A DNA stretch of 27,119 nucleotides from a virus. Made by a program: the position numbers and the translations under genes. Of the stretch, positions 7,176 through 20,474 are shown one piece after another (the first letter of the stretch is position 1; every line of letters starts with the position of its first letter). Below the pieces are notes generated by a model that was not told the origin of the DNA, did no database searches, and worked only from the letters and a program-made list of their open reading frames with translations. The stretch is from positions 1-27,119 of IMG/VR virus record IMGVR_UViG_3300037042_002822; one strand, given 5' to 3'.

Positions 7176-7538
7176 TTGTCTGGAACAAAAATCGTTATAG
7201 AGCTTCCTTTCGCCCCAAGCGTTAATCGTTTGTGGCGGGTTGGAAAGAACAAAAGATTTTATAAAACAAAGGCTTATGAAGAATGGTTGGGAACTTGCAG
7301 TTGGCTTATTGCCATAAATAAACTGACCCCTATTCTTGGTAATTATCGCCTGACTATTGAGGCAACGCGACCAGATAAAAGGAAAAGAGACATTGACAAC
7401 TTTATCAAAGCTGTTTCAGATCTGTTACAGACAAACGGGATAATCGAAGATGATTGTCTATGTGAAGAAGTGATTGCTAAATGGGTCAAAGCTGGCCCTC
7501 CAATGTTGATAACCGTGGAGAAATTAGATGTCGTATAA
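7176..7538 (+). CDS. rusA: RusA-family Holliday junction resolvase
   Basis: 120 aa from the chosen TTG start. The family pattern is clear: an N-terminal strand ending in a Pro/Ser-Val-Asn motif (PFAPSVNRLWR, residues 11-21), a YKTKAYEEW segment, then the catalytic region RPDKRKRDIDNFIKAVSDLL with Asp72 and Asp74, and NGIIEDD with Asp92/93. These correspond to the three catalytic Asp of E. coli RusA. No ATG is available at the N terminus; TTG at 7176 has GGGG 6 bases before it, while the upstream in-frame TTG at 7164 has no ribosome site. It cuts four-way junctions from replication and recombination before packaging. The 3' end overlaps the next gene by 11 bases. Confidence 0.92.
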   Translation: MSGTKIVIELPFAPSVNRLWRVGKNKRFYKTKAYEEWLGTCSWLIAINKLTPILGNYRLTIEATRPDKRKRDIDNFIKAVSDLLQTNGIIEDDCLCEEVIAKWVKAGPPMLITVEKLDVV

Positions 7539-8040
7539 GTCAGATCTTGAGAAGAAATACGCTGAAATCAAAAACCGGATGTATGGTAAAAACACAGCGG
7601 TAGTTAACGAAAATGCCATTCGTGCCGCACAACAGGTGCTGTGGGATACACCGCCAAACACATTTGATGATCTTGAGCCACCCATGCAAGTTGGCGGCGT
7701 GGCTGGCCCTACTGGGGTCATCATCCCAGAACCAGTTGTCAAGTCTGGCTTGACACCTCTGATCGACACCAAACAAAGCTACATGAATATGCTTTATTGG
7801 ATTGCCAAAAAGCACCGCATTGATCCCGCCCTGATCCAGAGCGAAGGTCGGAACAAGCGGTTGGTGGCTGCCCGCCATGAGCTTTGGTGGCGCGTGAGAA
7901 CTGAATTGAACTATTCTTTCCCACGTATTGCCCGCCTTGCACATCGGGATCATTCTACAATTATTTACGCTGTTCAAACTTTTGCTGCCAAGGCGCTTGA
8001 CAGCAAAGAAGCTCAGGTTCAGTCTGCAAAAACCGCGTAG
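7528..8040 (+). CDS. DnaA domain IV-containing phage protein
   Basis: 170 aa. Residues about 95-155 match the C-terminal DNA-binding domain of DnaA: a helix with RNKRLVAARHELWWRVR, a helix-turn-helix (SFPRIARLAHRDH) and the signature DHSTIIYAV (141-149), close to the DHSTVLYA of DnaA proteins. There is no AAA+ ATPase domain. The N-terminal 95 residues are helical then Pro/Gly-rich and unfamiliar. It overlaps RusA by 11 bases and lies one gene before the iteron-bearing initiator. I infer that it binds specific DNA in the phage origin or at DnaA boxes, either helping phage initiation or competing with host DnaA. Confidence 0.8.
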   Translation: MSYKSDLEKKYAEIKNRMYGKNTAVVNENAIRAAQQVLWDTPPNTFDDLEPPMQVGGVAGPTGVIIPEPVVKSGLTPLIDTKQSYMNMLYWIAKKHRIDPALIQSEGRNKRLVAARHELWWRVRTELNYSFPRIARLAHRDHSTIIYAVQTFAAKALDSKEAQVQSAKTA

Positions 8041-8061: not shown

Positions 8062-8097
8062 TGGGCCAGTCTAGTTCCTCCGGGCTGGCCCATTTTT
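8062..8097 (+). terminator. Rho-independent terminator after the DnaA-like gene
   Basis: Perfect 8-bp inverted repeat TGGGCCAG (8062-8069) and CTGGCCCA (8085-8092) with a 15-base loop, followed at once by T5 (8093-8097). It lies 21 bases after the stop of the DnaA-like gene. Confidence 0.72.
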
Positions 8098-8105
8098 AGG
8101 GCCTT

Positions 8106-8144
8106 AAAAAACGAACCGCCCCAGTCGGCAAACCGGGGCGGCTC
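8106..8144 (-). terminator. Minus-strand intrinsic terminator facing the previous one
   Basis: CCGCCCC (8116-8122) and GGGGCGG (8135-8141) form a 7-bp GC-rich stem with a 12-base loop. On the minus strand it is followed by a T6 run (complement of A6 at 8106-8111). It would stop leftward transcription, although no leftward gene is visible just to its right; it may protect the RusA/DnaA-like genes from antisense transcription. Confidence 0.55.
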
Positions 8145-8164
8145 AAAAACAGAACGAGTGCGCG

Positions 8165-8198
8165 TTCTGATGATTTACACCCACAATATATAGTGGGT
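8165..8198 (+). promoter_or_regulatory. Candidate promoter/operator of the replication initiator
   Basis: A 6-bp inverted repeat ACCCAC (8179-8184) / GTGGGT (8193-8198) flanks an all-AT 8-base centre (AATATATA). TATAGT (8189-8194) could be a -10 box with TTCTGA (8165-8170) as a weak -35 at 18 bases. The repeat would sit on the -10 box, as an operator does. The half-site CCACWAT also occurs twice near 12631-12655. The 194-base gap 8041-8234 holds the two terminators and this element. Confidence 0.45.
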
Positions 8199-8234: not shown

Positions 8235-8924
8235 ATGAGTTTCCAAGCAATGGCATGGGCTGTAAAACAACAGCTTCCTACCAATGAAAAGTTCCTCCTG
8301 ATTATGTTGGCAAACTATGCCAGCAACGATGAAGGCGAGTGTTTTCCCGCCATTGAAACGCTGATGCGCGAAACTTCATTGGCTCGTACCACTGTCAGAA
8401 AGTGTCTTCATAGTCTGCAAACCAAGGGTTATATCAGCGCCCATGAGCGGTGGTCAAATGGCCGCCAGCTTTCCAATTCTTACCGAATGGTTGTGGGTTG
8501 GGGGGAGGGGTCGCCACACGACCACCGGGGGTCGCCACACGACCGGGGGGGGTCGCCACACGACCCCACGGGGGGTCGCCACACGACCCCTAATCTATCA
8601 TTAGAACCTATCAATCAACCTAAAAAGGTTTTGCCTCCAAAGTTTGATGAGGCGGAATTGACCTTTGACTTTGAAATCTTCTGGGCGGCTTATCCCAAGC
8701 GTCCAAGCAACCCTAAGCAGCCAGCACTCAAGAGTTACCTGAAGGCTCGCAAGGAAGGGGCAACCAAAGAAATCATTATGGCGGGGGCTATGGCTTATGC
8801 CAAGACAAGGGCCGGGAAAGAAACTGAATACACCGCGATGGCGGCAACATGGTTGAACCAGAAGCGGTGGGAAGATGACTACGGGCCTGTGAAGGCGGTG
8901 CGTAATTCAGGTAACTTCGTATGA
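8235..8924 (+). CDS. Phage replication initiator, winged-HTH (lambda O-like in layout)
   Basis: 229 aa. The N terminus (MSFQAMAWAVKQQ) followed by a winged helix-turn-helix (NEKFLLIMLANYAS; ETLMRETSLARTTVRKCLHS; residues about 15-70) is typical of phage replication O-type proteins. Residues 91-118 are a repeat (GSPHD three times) encoded by DNA iterons. The C-terminal 90 residues carry the usual FW-AYPKR and ATWLNQKRWEDD motifs (149-154 and 205-215). I chose the ATG at 8235 because homologous proteins begin here and GGGG lies 6 bases upstream; GTG 8193 and ATG 8223 are alternatives. It should bind the iterons within its own gene and recruit the helicase encoded just downstream. The stop overlaps the next start as ATGA. 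Confidence 0.85.
   Translation: MSFQAMAWAVKQQLPTNEKFLLIMLANYASNDEGECFPAIETLMRETSLARTTVRKCLHSLQTKGYISAHERWSNGRQLSNSYRMVVGWGEGSPHDHRGSPHDRGGSPHDPTGGRHTTPNLSLEPINQPKKVLPPKFDEAELTFDFEIFWAAYPKRPSNPKQPALKSYLKARKEGATKEIIMAGAMAYAKTRAGKETEYTAMAATWLNQKRWEDDYGPVKAVRNSGNFV
8509..8588. repeat. Four iterons inside the initiator gene: probable origin of replication
   Basis: Four exact copies of GGTCGCCACACGACC at 8509-8523, 8530-8544, 8551-8565 and 8574-8588. Start-to-start distances are 21, 21 and 23 bases. Each copy is itself an inverted repeat (GGTCG / CGACC around CCACA), and G/C runs extend the arms in later copies. The last copy is shifted in reading frame (protein changes from GSPHD to GRHTTP) yet keeps the DNA sequence, so selection acts on DNA. 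An AT-rich stretch (8591-8640) follows. This is the layout of the lambda origin inside gene O. Confidence 0.78.
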
Positions 8925-9241
8925 GCGATGTGGAGGCGATTTTATCAGAGTTGGGGATAACTGGGCGGCGGTATCGCACTGGGGGTGGTAATTTCAAAAC
9001 TCTTTGCCCCCAATGCAGTCATAAACGTAAGCACAAATCAGATCCGTGCCTTTCCGTGCGTGTAGACGAAACAGGTGTTGGCATTCGGTGCCATAATTGT
9101 AGTTGGACAGAAGGTAGATTTTTCGATGGCTATCAGCGAACTTCACATGCAGTGGCTGGACAGCAGGGGCGTACTCAACGCCGCGATGGGTACGGGGATT
9201 TACTCCGGTCGGCGCGATCAGGATGGGCAAGTCAACGCTGA
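8921..9241 (+). CDS. Primase zinc-binding domain ORF (separate or frameshifted from helicase)
   Basis: 106 aa. Residues about 20-62 form a primase-type zinc ribbon: LCPQC, then a basic stretch, PCLSVRVD and IRCHNCSW, giving two CxxC pairs. In T7 gp4-like primases this module reads the template start site and precedes the Toprim domain in the same chain. Here the frame continues past the zinc ribbon into 40 Arg/Gln/Gly-rich residues with no family resemblance, while the expected Toprim continuation lies in the +1 frame from 9126. A T5 run (9119-9123) stands at the junction: removing one T would fuse both into a 567-aa primase-helicase. Natural split, programmed +1 slippage and an assembly error are all possible. 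It overlaps the initiator gene by 4 bases (ATGA). Confidence 0.75.
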   Translation: MSDVEAILSELGITGRRYRTGGGNFKTLCPQCSHKRKHKSDPCLSVRVDETGVGIRCHNCSWTEGRFFDGYQRTSHAVAGQQGRTQRRDGYGDLLRSARSGWASQR

Positions 9242-10625
9242 CGCGGCGGGTGACATCCTCGTTTTCCCATTCATTCGCAATGAGGCGGAGATTGGGGCCA
9301 AGTATCGCGCCAAGGGTAAGCGGTTCTGGCAGAAGCCAGATTGCCCAAAGCTGTTCTTCAATGGCGATGTATTGGATGACCCCAGCCTGATCGATGGCAG
9401 CCATGCGCTGGTCATTGTTGAGGGAGAGGTCGATGCCTTGTCTTTCATTGAGGCGGGTTATCCGTTCGTTGTTTCGGTGCCGGATGGCGCTCCTCCTGCG
9501 CGAGACAAGCATGGCCGATTGATCAGTGTGCCGGAAGGCACCGCAGACATCGACATCGACAACGATGACAAGTTCAGTTTCATTGTTAACGAGTGGGATG
9601 CACTGGCGAAGATCAAGTCGATTATTATTGCCACAGATGGTGACGAGCCGGGGCAGCGGTTGGCTAAGGAACTGGTGCGAAGGCTCGACAAGATCCGCTG
9701 CATGTTCGTGACCTACCCAGAAGGGTGCAAGGATGCGAACGAGGTTCTGGGGAAGTTTGGTAAGCAAGCGGTTTTGGATCTTGTTAAGAACGCCAAGCCT
9801 TATCCGGTCAGCGGTGTTTACACTTACGAAGATTTGCCGCCAGAGCTTCCGATTGAGACAGTCTACACAGGCTGGGACAGCCTCAATGGCTCTCTGAACC
9901 CATATAGACCTTGTTTTATGGTCGTGACGGGTTTCCCCGGCAACGGCAAGTCAACTTGGACTGTGCAGCTTGCCGCCCATCTGGCTTACCTGCATGGATG
10001 GAACATCGGCCTTGCCAGCTTTGAAATGCGGATCAAGCCTTATGTCACTGATCAGATTTCGGGTGCGTTCAAAGCCATCAGGATGCGTATGCCTTCAGGT
10101 GACGAGAACCTGACTGCCGAACGCTTCATCCAGAGGCGGTTCTATTTCATCGCGCCTGACCCAGAGGACGATGACACAGTTCACGACATCGATTGGCTTC
10201 TGGAGCGCATGACTACGGCGGTGATCCGGCACGGCATGAAAGTCTGCATCATCGACCCTTGGAACGAAATTGAACACCGCCGGGAGCGTGATGAGAGCAA
10301 CACCGATTATACCGGGCGGGCCATCAGGAAGTTGAAGGCATTTGCCCGCCGCTACGATGTGCTGGTGATCGTGGTGGCTCACCCAGTGAAGGGGGCCGGG
10401 AGCAAGGAGGCGCAAGACTTGGGCCTGTACGACATCAGCGACAGCAGCCACTGGGCGAATAAGGCTGACATCGGCGTGATAGTGGCCCGCCTTGGAGATC
10501 TGAGCATATCCAGCGAAACCGGGATCTTTATCAAGAAGATCAGATACCAACCAGACGCGGGTCAAATTGGCGATGTGACCCTGAACTTTAACCGGACAGA
10601 CCGCATTTTTGAGCAGCGTAATTAA
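9126..10625 (+). CDS. Toprim primase / RecA-fold replicative helicase (T7 gp4/Twinkle-like)
   Basis: 499 aa from ATG 9126. N-terminal linker (HMQWLDSRGV), then Toprim: ALVIVEGEVDALSFIEAG with catalytic Glu near residue 99, and IIIATDGDEPGQRLAKEL with the Asp-x-Asp pair near residue 172. The C-terminal RecA-like helicase has Walker A GFPGNGKST near residue 265, SFEM, Walker B VCIIDPWNE near residue 370, then VLVIVVAHPVKG and a motif-4-like SHWANKADIGVIVAR. It primes lagging strands and unwinds the fork. An in-frame ATG at 9075 lies inside the zinc-finger ORF; 9126 fits the family start of this segment. The true protein may be a fusion with the preceding zinc ribbon through a +1 shift. It ends the replication operon. 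Confidence 0.92.
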   Translation: MAISELHMQWLDSRGVLNAAMGTGIYSGRRDQDGQVNADAAGDILVFPFIRNEAEIGAKYRAKGKRFWQKPDCPKLFFNGDVLDDPSLIDGSHALVIVEGEVDALSFIEAGYPFVVSVPDGAPPARDKHGRLISVPEGTADIDIDNDDKFSFIVNEWDALAKIKSIIIATDGDEPGQRLAKELVRRLDKIRCMFVTYPEGCKDANEVLGKFGKQAVLDLVKNAKPYPVSGVYTYEDLPPELPIETVYTGWDSLNGSLNPYRPCFMVVTGFPGNGKSTWTVQLAAHLAYLHGWNIGLASFEMRIKPYVTDQISGAFKAIRMRMPSGDENLTAERFIQRRFYFIAPDPEDDDTVHDIDWLLERMTTAVIRHGMKVCIIDPWNEIEHRRERDESNTDYTGRAIRKLKAFARRYDVLVIVVAHPVKGAGSKEAQDLGLYDISDSSHWANKADIGVIVARLGDLSISSETGIFIKKIRYQPDAGQIGDVTLNFNRTDRIFEQRN

Positions 10626-18830: not shown

Positions 18831-18859
18831 TTGCTTGATGGCTATGTATGTGATATTAT
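18831..18859 (+). promoter_or_regulatory. Candidate promoter of the methyltransferase gene
   Basis: TTGCTT (18831-18836), exactly 17 bases, then TATTAT (18854-18859; 5 of 6 matches to TATAAT). The start codon at 18882 follows 23 bases later with AAGG in between. The best -10 match with correct spacing in the right half of the window. Confidence 0.5.
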
Positions 18860-18881
18860 TGATGAAATCAAAGGTGGGATG

Positions 18882-20474
18882 ATGAAGTATTTATCAATAT
18901 GCTCTGGGATTGAGGCGGCATCTGTCGCTTGGCATTCCCTTGGGTGGCAGCCTCTGGCGTTTTCAGAGATTGAGCCATTCCCCCGTGAAGTTCTGTCTAA
19001 GCGTTATCCTGATGTTCCCTGTCATGGTGATTTCACTGTCTTGAGAGATCAGGAATGGATTGTTGATGCCGATGTATTGGTAGGCGGAACACCCTGTCAA
19101 GCATTCAGCATTGCCGGGTTGCGTAACAGTCTGTCTGACCAGCGTGGTAATCTTTCATTGGAATTTGTGAGGCTTGCAGATGCAATTGACAATTTTCGAT
19201 TTTCTGCCGGAAAACCCCCAGCCATCATCGTCTGGGAAAACGTCCCCGGTGTCCTCTCAGTCAGTGACAACGCCTTCGGATGCTTCCTCGCAGCATTGGC
19301 TGGAGACGATACCCCCTACGTTCCGCCACGGGGAAAATGGACAAACGCGGGTGTGGTTGCTGGATCCAAAAGAACAATCGCGTGGATCATCAAGGATGCC
19401 CAATATTATGGAGTGGCCCAACGCCGCCGCCGTGTGTTCGTTGTCGCAAGTTCTCGAAACGGGTTTGATCCCGCAGCGGTTCTTCTTGAGTTCGAAGGCG
19501 TGCGCCGGGATACTCCGCCGCGCAGAGGCGAGGGGCAAGAAGCTTCCCCATCTTCTGGAACAGGCTTTGTTGGCGGGTTCCAATCCAGCCAATCCGGTGT
19601 CCGATTAACAAACACCCATGCTACCTTGGATGCCAACAACGGCTCAAGGCGGCATAATGGGGTTATTGTTGAACAGCCTATTGCCTACTCAATCATGCCG
19701 ATGAACTCAGGCAAAGATTACAAAGCCCGTGAGACAGATATTTCCCAGCCGTTAATGGCTGCTGGCCCAGTGGGTGGTAATCAAGGCGGTGACTTCGTAG
19801 CCCAGCCATTGGTATATGACACAAGAAACGGCCTTGCACCGCATGGTTCAATGCAAGGGTCACCAGTTGTTGGAGCTTTGCTTGCCAAAGAGGCGGAAAT
19901 GCCTATGGTTTTGTCACGCCAACCTACAGCGTATGGCTTCCAGCCCCGCATCGCCCGTAATGGCCGGGGTGACATGGGTGATGTTGTCGGAACCCTCAGC
20001 GCAGAAGCTGGAACTGGTGATACCGCACCTTGCGTGGCGGTGGCTTATCCCATCCAATCACCGGGAAGGTGTGATGGACAAGGTTCGGTTGGCATTGGGC
20101 AGCCTGAAGATCCGATGTTTACATTGTCCACCATGAAAGACCAACACGCTGTTGGTTTTTACGCAAATGAAGGTTCACATGGTTCTGGCAATAATGCGGA
20201 ATTGTCGCCTACGCTGAAAGCACACCCAAAGACCAGCAATCTGGCAGCCGTAGCAACCTCAATGCAAGTGCGCCGATTAACACCCACAGAATGCGAACGC
20301 CTTCAAGGCTTCCCAGATGGTTACACAGCCATACCTTGGAAGAAGAAGGATGCCAATGAATGCCCAGATGGCCCCAGATACAAGGCATTGGGAAACAGCA
20401 TGGCTGTTCCAGTAATGAGATGGATTGGTGAGAGAATTAACAACCAAGTTAATCAATCCTTTTCCACACTCTGA
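18882..20474 (+). CDS. dcm: C5-cytosine DNA methyltransferase
   Basis: 530 aa from ATG 18882 (AAGG 7 bases upstream). All core motifs are present: I, SICSGIEAASVAW (5-17); IV, GGTPCQAF with catalytic Cys72; VI, WENV (118-121); VIII, GVAQRRRRVFVV (177-188); IX, RLTPTECERLQGFP (465-478); X, ALGNSMAVPV (502-511). It transfers a methyl group from S-adenosylmethionine to C5 of cytosine. The target-recognition part (about 235-460) is long and made of roughly six degenerate repeats, so the recognition site cannot be predicted. A second conserved gene lies inside it in the +1 frame. No restriction endonuclease partner is visible, so it probably protects phage DNA. Confidence 0.95.
   Translation: MKYLSICSGIEAASVAWHSLGWQPLAFSEIEPFPREVLSKRYPDVPCHGDFTVLRDQEWIVDADVLVGGTPCQAFSIAGLRNSLSDQRGNLSLEFVRLADAIDNFRFSAGKPPAIIVWENVPGVLSVSDNAFGCFLAALAGDDTPYVPPRGKWTNAGVVAGSKRTIAWIIKDAQYYGVAQRRRRVFVVASSRNGFDPAAVLLEFEGVRRDTPPRRGEGQEASPSSGTGFVGGFQSSQSGVRLTNTHATLDANNGSRRHNGVIVEQPIAYSIMPMNSGKDYKARETDISQPLMAAGPVGGNQGGDFVAQPLVYDTRNGLAPHGSMQGSPVVGALLAKEAEMPMVLSRQPTAYGFQPRIARNGRGDMGDVVGTLSAEAGTGDTAPCVAVAYPIQSPGRCDGQGSVGIGQPEDPMFTLSTMKDQHAVGFYANEGSHGSGNNAELSPTLKAHPKTSNLAAVATSMQVRRLTPTECERLQGFPDGYTAIPWKKKDANECPDGPRYKALGNSMAVPVMRWIGERINNQVNQSFSTL
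19180..19608 (+). CDS. Conserved phage protein overprinted inside the methyltransferase gene
   Basis: 142 aa in the +1 frame relative to the methyltransferase (covering its residues about 100-242). ATG 19180 has GAGG exactly 7 bases upstream. The C-terminal half has WPNAAAVCSLSQVLETG, IPQRFFLSSKACAGILRRAE and ARGKKLPHLLEQAL, which I recognise as a widespread phage protein family (WPN/S-x-A-x-VCSLSxVLE-G, PQR-FLS-ACxGILRRAEKRGK). The N-terminal half (TTPSDASSQHWLETIPP, QTRVWLLDP) also fits that family. Such whole-length resemblance would not arise from a shadow frame. Function is unknown; co-occurrence with the methyltransferase suggests a linked role. Confidence 0.8.
   Translation: MQLTIFDFLPENPQPSSSGKTSPVSSQSVTTPSDASSQHWLETIPPTFRHGENGQTRVWLLDPKEQSRGSSRMPNIMEWPNAAAVCSLSQVLETGLIPQRFFLSSKACAGILRRAEARGKKLPHLLEQALLAGSNPANPVSD

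Follow-up and report, generated by a model that had tools for sequence, protein, structure and literature searches.

The locus examined here raises the question of why a phage replication initiator gene should carry, in its middle, four identical copies of a DNA sequence that do not all lie in the same reading frame. The window, that is, the whole 27,119-bp stretch of DNA analysed, is the entire viral record searched and perhaps a fragment of a larger genome. Within the gene of a 229-aa replication initiator (8235..8924, plus strand), it contains four exact 15-bp copies of GGTCGCCACACGACC, each of them an inverted repeat, at plus-strand positions 8509..8523, 8530..8544, 8551..8565 and 8574..8588. 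These copies and their steps of 21, 21 and 23 bp had been pointed out in a preliminary description of the sequence and are confirmed. The dyad takes the form GGTCG-CCACA-CGACC and, in copies 3 and 4, extends to 8549-8567 and 8572-8590, respectively, with 7-bp arms (GGGGTCG...CGACCCC). The first three copies are in codon phase 1 and read GSPHD, and the 23-bp step moves the fourth, again as previously described, to another reading frame; this is phase 0, in which the unchanged DNA reads GRHTT. No further copy, with up to three mismatches allowed, was found in the whole record besides the four, and the shuffled record contained on average 0.55 such copies and 2 at most. The spacers between the iterons (ACCGGG, GGGGGG and CCACGGGG) vary in both sequence and length, and because they differ, the array is not simply a fresh tandem duplication.

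In 5000 synonymous codon shuffles of the initiator gene, which preserve the protein sequence and the codon usage, any given 15-mer occurred at most twice, compared to four times in the real gene. Together with the relatives considered below, these sequence comparisons support the earlier proposal that selection acts on the DNA of the repeats rather than on the peptide. The weight originally placed on the break of codon phase has to be reduced, however: the break is real here, but it is a common state, shared by about half of the relatives and by lambda, rather than an unusual one. The succession of 21, 21 and 23 bp is not unique either, being identical in Serratia rubidaea (L060) with another repeat sequence. 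Exact pairs of the iteron were not found in viral contigs, the closest case being the relative L236, so that, among the contigs searched, this iteron is private to the phage.

The identification of the gene product rests on a match to PF13730 (HTH_36) of 46.8 bits (E 2.6e-12; curated cut-off 25) and on a match to PHROG_270, replication initiation protein, over almost the full length (E 1e-45). The start was set at ATG 8235 by homology, given that relatives (MSFQAMAWA) begin at the same methionine; the frame is likewise open from an in-frame GTG upstream, at 8193. In the AlphaFold2 model, residues 1-85 (8235..8489) form a winged helix-turn-helix DNA-binding domain, predicted with pLDDT mostly above 90 and matching winged helices in the PDB. 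The turn and the start of the recognition helix, LARTTVRKC, occupy residues 49-57 (8379..8405), the modelled helix spanning residues 51-64. The initiator has no sequence relatives in the PDB, and the fold search returned general winged helices, among which Rep (5kbj) and DnaD (2v79), both winged-helix matches with Foldseek E values of 0.08-0.1, are not prominent. Residues 91-128 (8505..8618; pLDDT below 50) are predicted to form a disordered linker, and the DNA encoding them takes in the iterons together with the beginning of the AT-rich stretch that follows. A C-terminal helical domain, FWxAYPKR...ATWLNQKRWEDD (8649..8894; residue 139 onward in the model), is matched by the PHROG_9327 (primosomal) and PHROG_9474 (initiation) profiles and probably contacts the helicase or its loader.

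Pfam and PHROG profiles identify further replication genes adjoining the initiator, namely, RusA, a DnaA-domain-IV-like protein, a primase-like protein and a DnaB-like helicase. The next gene downstream (8921..9241, plus strand) encodes a zinc-ribbon, primase-like protein with a weak match to PHROG_47, DNA primase (E 2e-4). It is followed by a Toprim plus DnaB-like helicase protein (9075..10625, plus strand; DnaB_C E 1.5e-11, Toprim_2 E 3e-11, PHROG_239 primase/helicase E 4e-76), which is a candidate for the helicase loaded at the origin. The coding sequences of the primase part and the Toprim/helicase part share a stretch that is read in different frames and includes five consecutive T at 9119-9123; either there are two genes, or a single gene is frameshifted, or the sequencing was in error. 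On its upstream side, the initiator gene is directly preceded by that of a 170-aa product (7528-8040, plus strand), which resembles the C-terminal domain IV of DnaA (Bac_DnaA_C, E 6e-11) and is without the AAA+ part of that protein. Between these two genes, several terminator-like hairpins are present on both strands (8068-8169), and an operator-like dyad, ACCCACAATATATAGTGGGT, lies at 8179-8198, directly upstream of the initiator start. Elsewhere in the record, a C-5 cytosine DNA methyltransferase gene (18831-20474, plus strand) matches its profile in two separate stretches. DnaA boxes in the window are close in number to the chance expectation (4 matches against 2.8), and none is located at the iteron array. 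The GC skew, which had been offered as a check on the position of an origin, does not bear it out: its sign changes at about 7 kb (near 7.1 kb), together with the switch of coding strand, and not at the iterons.

Relatives of the initiator were gathered from viral contigs, genomes, phages and plasmids, and 168 non-redundant loci were scorable for families of interrupted palindromes, which were sought blindly in the 270 nt that follow the winged helix (score threshold, at least 30). A palindromic repeat family was detected in the linker region of 82 of these, compared to none of 1155 control windows taken from the same genes and their flanks; in 68%, the observed score exceeded those of all 60 synonymous shuffles. 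Among 58 previously unused loci with less than 75% identity to the first set, 17 carried such a family, against 0 of 343 controls, the thresholds having been set before this held-out set was examined, yet after the first examples had been seen. Altogether, about a hundred distant relatives in the two sets possess such arrays. About half of the relatives fall below the threshold, some of them perhaps with imperfect or non-palindromic iterons, and the detection rate of roughly one in two is therefore probably a lower bound.

The repeat sequences vary widely among these relatives (GGTCAGCGGCTGACC, TGCAAAATTTGCA, GGTGCTGACAGCACC, GTCCGCCACACGGAC and others), and the check proposed earlier, that relatives should vary the peptide and keep the repeats, comes out in favour of the DNA: the dyad and steps of 21-24 bp are retained in varying codon phases. 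L236 has an iteron nearly identical to that of the window and different encoded peptides. The most frequent steps, counted without correction for ancestry, are 21 (52 cases), 24 (38), 22 (38) and 23 (31), and the residues of the steps modulo 3, likewise uncorrected, are distributed 96/42/42. Codon phase is broken at 40 loci and kept at 38, and in the held-out set it is broken at 15 of 16. In 44 of 55 cases, out-of-phase steps that follow one another total a multiple of 3, most often as 22+23=45, as expected if arrays change by in-frame units only, since single units of 22 or 23 bp would require a frameshift and pairs would not; because the loci are related, this is not a clean test. Palindromic repeats, ACCGAATCGGT, are also found inside the genes of an initiator-like family with another N-terminus (L012 and L015; also L009-L017). 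Two relatives, from Sulfitobacter and Microbulbifer, are located on circular plasmid records that also carry phage head and tail genes and are probable phage-plasmids; no other initiator is annotated on these records, but their gene tables are incomplete, so that the lone initiator is only consistent with an initiator function.

The preliminary description was correct in that AT-rich DNA directly follows the array (67% A+T over 48 bp), but it missed a second repeat array in the same stretch. This candidate DNA unwinding element (8589..8636, plus strand) contains three degenerate, strand-specific repeats, AATCTATCATTAG, AACCTATCAATC and AACCTAAAAAGG, starting at 8592, 8605 and 8617 (8592..8628, plus strand). 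In the window, these AACC-type units include one clear unit only and are separated by steps of 13 and 12, hence in two codon phases. The rise in A+T is family-wide: in the relatives, the A+T fraction is 0.56 in the 60 bp past the last iteron against 0.47 in the rest of the gene (p 1e-12), and at third codon positions of the same 60 bp it is 0.65 against 0.42. The family consensus of the direct repeats, which are about 12 bp long and spaced by steps of 12, 17, 11 and 13 nt, is rAACCwrTCAnn. In 91 segments, AACC is found 223 times and GGTT 21 times, so that the element is strand-specific; synonymous shuffles contain AACC 116 times on average and 131 times at most. In the held-out set, the corresponding numbers are 36 for AACC against 20.7 in shuffles (largest, 27) and 2 for GGTT. 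Relative to the iterons, the AACC array never changes sides, and its units are found in more than one reading frame at 51 of 73 loci. In many members from gammaproteobacteria, translation of the first unit gives RTSH and that of the following unit EPVN, so that the conserved peptide RTSHSxEPVNEP comes from a single DNA repeat in two frames. The AACC repeat may serve as a landing site on single-stranded DNA, in analogy to repeats of this kind of which plasmid Rep proteins bind one strand (PMC4081077). The literature searched, which covered few subscription papers, contains no description of it that we found.

If the iterons are sites for the encoded protein, their sequence might be expected to follow that of its recognition helix. 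For 3194 pairs of initiators, a count not corrected for ancestry, the similarity of iteron half-sites was set against that of the winged-helix alignment in nine-column windows, with correction for the rest of the domain. Half-site similarity peaks at the recognition helix, LARTTVRKC, with a partial r of 0.32 (maximum of 0.13 in 500 label permutations), and does not exceed about 0.12 outside this helix and its approach; these are related sequences, and the permutation test controls for ancestry only partly. As a predictor of the half-site, the initiator with the most similar recognition helix outperforms the one most similar in the remainder of the domain (0.585 against 0.516, p 0.002, n=99), and the 18 held-out loci point in the same direction (0.61 against 0.50) with a p of 0.14 that is not significant alone. 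The window's own half-site is predicted poorly (0.375) from the nearest recognition helix, that of L062. Recurrent pairs are MGRSTVK with GGTCAG, IGRSTVK with GGGGCAG, SRRSV often with GTGAA, and MG[VI]STLK with GGTCAGA; L236, with 32% domain identity to the window's initiator, has in common with it the half-site GGTCGCC and the residues RT with which the helix begins. This pattern, drawn from sequence, supports direct binding of the encoded initiator to its own iterons and is not proof of it. Covariation of helix and iteron in HTH_36 initiators was not found in the literature searched, in which few subscription papers were covered. The unwinding repeat, by comparison, covaries with lineage (r 0.60 with total identity) and with a helix-2 segment rather than with the recognition helix, a pattern confounded by ancestry.

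Explanations without an origin were also weighed for some of these features. Copies 1-3 agree in their peptide, as would be the case if the DNA repeats were a by-product of selection for GSPHD; however, copy 4 keeps the DNA and loses the peptide, dyads of equal spacing in relatives encode unrelated peptides, and the iteron-encoded segment is predicted to be disordered. With none of the 5000 synonymous shuffles yielding more than two copies of any 15-mer, peptide selection was rejected and can hardly be credited at all. Every copy could also form a stem of 5-7 bp with a 5-nt loop in the initiator mRNA, with a role in translation or mRNA decay. RNA stems would tolerate G-U, and the lack of an excess of G-T mismatches in 1788 dyad pairs of relatives (65 G-T/T-G against 85 A-C/C-A) therefore speaks against such hairpins; moreover, the steps cluster at two helical turns and the sites covary with the recognition helix. 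The hairpin explanation was accordingly rejected as very improbable. We consider a recent, functionless expansion by slippage to be just as implausible. The exact identity of the four copies and the slippage-prone, G-rich spacers would fit it, but the 15-mers are exact while the spacers vary in sequence and length, and many lineages show the arrangement in the same position with different sequences, compared to 0 of 1498 control windows of the two sets, a recurrence that contradicts it.

A rival that deserves somewhat more attention, even if it is unlikely, is that the repeats are sites at which the initiator controls its own expression or the timing of replication, the origin being elsewhere. 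Dyad sites of a winged-helix protein are likewise compatible with an operator, and plasmid initiators are known that serve both at the origin and in autoregulation; a separate dyad, ACCCACAATATATAGTGGGT, is moreover available upstream of the gene. An operator would nevertheless be poorly placed 280-350 bp within the coding sequence, and a search of the plus strand at the iterons gave no sigma-70-like promoter, whereas a strand-specific AT-rich array constantly on one side of the iterons suits an origin. We therefore regard it as very probable that the region is a phage replication origin inside the gene of its own initiator, which would bind the four dyads. From the repeats, the phase break, the arrangement in the family, the covariation, the A+T rise and the second array, all obtained by sequence analysis, we infer binding, opening, helicase loading and origin activity, the best reading being a lambda-like origin with iterons and unwinding element within the initiator gene.

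The location of the lambda origin inside the initiator gene O is textbook knowledge (PMC7466680, PMC5043065), and the likeness noticed in the preliminary description holds for the layout: as in the window, lambda has four inverted-repeat iterons in the O linker, after the DNA-binding domain, and an AT-rich stretch of about 40 bp directly after them (PMC7466680, PMC5043065, PMC6022878). In the annotation of lambda, the iterons begin at 39034, 39054, 39078 and 39101, with steps of 20, 24 and 23 that also break phase, so that a phase break is ordinary for such origins. The likeness extends neither to the iteron sequences, which are unrelated, nor to the protein. Lambda O matches Phage_rep_O (PF04492; 123 bits) and has no HTH_36 match, and the reverse is true of the window's initiator, in which PF04492 is absent among Pfam matches up to E 0.01. 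Because the latter is an HTH_36 protein, the resemblance is one of layout and not of demonstrated family membership, although the initiator may work like O despite the missing match. Furthermore, the lambda AT-rich stretch is without the AACC-type units present in the window, and the next gene in lambda is the loader P, in place of which the window has the primase-like zinc ribbon, then the Toprim/DnaB-like protein, and no P.

Plasmid replicons and other phages offer further parallels. The hybrid Rep of pPR9 has a pfam13730 (HTH_36) N-terminus, the same Pfam DNA-binding domain as that in the window, with a phage replication protein as a homologue; the segment that was replaced spans the domain and the origin, and the mini-replicon is functional (PMC5703833). 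pPR9, however, is a staphylococcal plasmid with a pSK41-type C-terminus. In pSK41 RepA_N, the Rep boxes are in the middle of the rep gene, between the winged-helix N-terminus and the C-terminal domain, and the peptide that they encode is dispensable (PMC5703833); the window shares the mid-gene repeats and, as predicted from sequence and model, their coding for a linker. The pSK41 boxes involve an intrinsically bent A+T tract, in contrast to the GC-rich dyads of the window, the initiator of which has no RepA_N domain (PF06970) among Pfam matches up to E 0.01. The replication protein of Obolenskvirus (AB1, Brutus, Scipio) is homologous to that of the window (AB1gp53, hit H78/L029), and short mid-gene repeats were proposed previously to mark the origin in these phages (PMC10888812). 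In the passages of that account that were consulted, the repeats are named direct and measure nine to about twenty bp, as opposed to the dyads of the window, and we found no discussion there of phase, dyads, covariation or unwinding repeats (PMC10888812). In RK2-type iteron plasmids, as in the window, iterons adjoin an AT-rich element, which in the RK2 type has 13-bp repeats, and Rep binds one strand of the unwinding-element repeats (PMC4081077). The RK2-type Rep has two winged helices and binds direct-repeat iterons as monomers, whereas a single winged helix is predicted for the initiator of the window, with dyads as its sites.

These observations can be arranged into a simple model of initiation at this origin. 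Dimers of the 229-aa protein would use the recognition helix of the N-terminal winged helix to bind the dyads at 8509-8588 and, because the iterons are about two helical turns apart, would sit on similar faces of the DNA, forming a compact complex. This complex would strain and open the AT-rich stretch at 8589-8636, the AACC-type units may hold one of the opened strands, and the C-terminal domain would help to recruit the phage helicase encoded directly downstream. Because the encoded segment would be just a flexible linker, the repeats would be free to occupy any codon phase, provided that they do not close the reading frame of the gene.

More tentatively, and as a possibility held a shade below an even chance, HTH_36 phage initiators might share one origin grammar over distant hosts. 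It would consist of a dyad iteron readable from the recognition helix, followed by a strand-specific rAACCwrTCAnn that is shared among phages with differing iterons, both arrays being written through coding sequence in several frames. Under such a grammar, RTSHSxEPVNEP would have no function as a peptide, being the shadow of a DNA repeat, and the initiator or the helicase would land on the unwinding repeat as a single strand.

The layout as such is already known from lambda O, pSK41 RepA_N, the pPR9 HTH_36 hybrid and Obolenskvirus. What the present analysis adds at the level of the family is the covariation of helix and iteron, along with an unwinding repeat common to phages with different iterons, and for an uncharacterised phage it supplies the likely origin. 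The results suggest a rule under which the origins of many phages, prophages and phage-plasmids could be found from the initiator gene alone, and, given the covariation of helix and iteron, the specificity of origins and, in consequence, the incompatibility of replicons would become predictable and testable.
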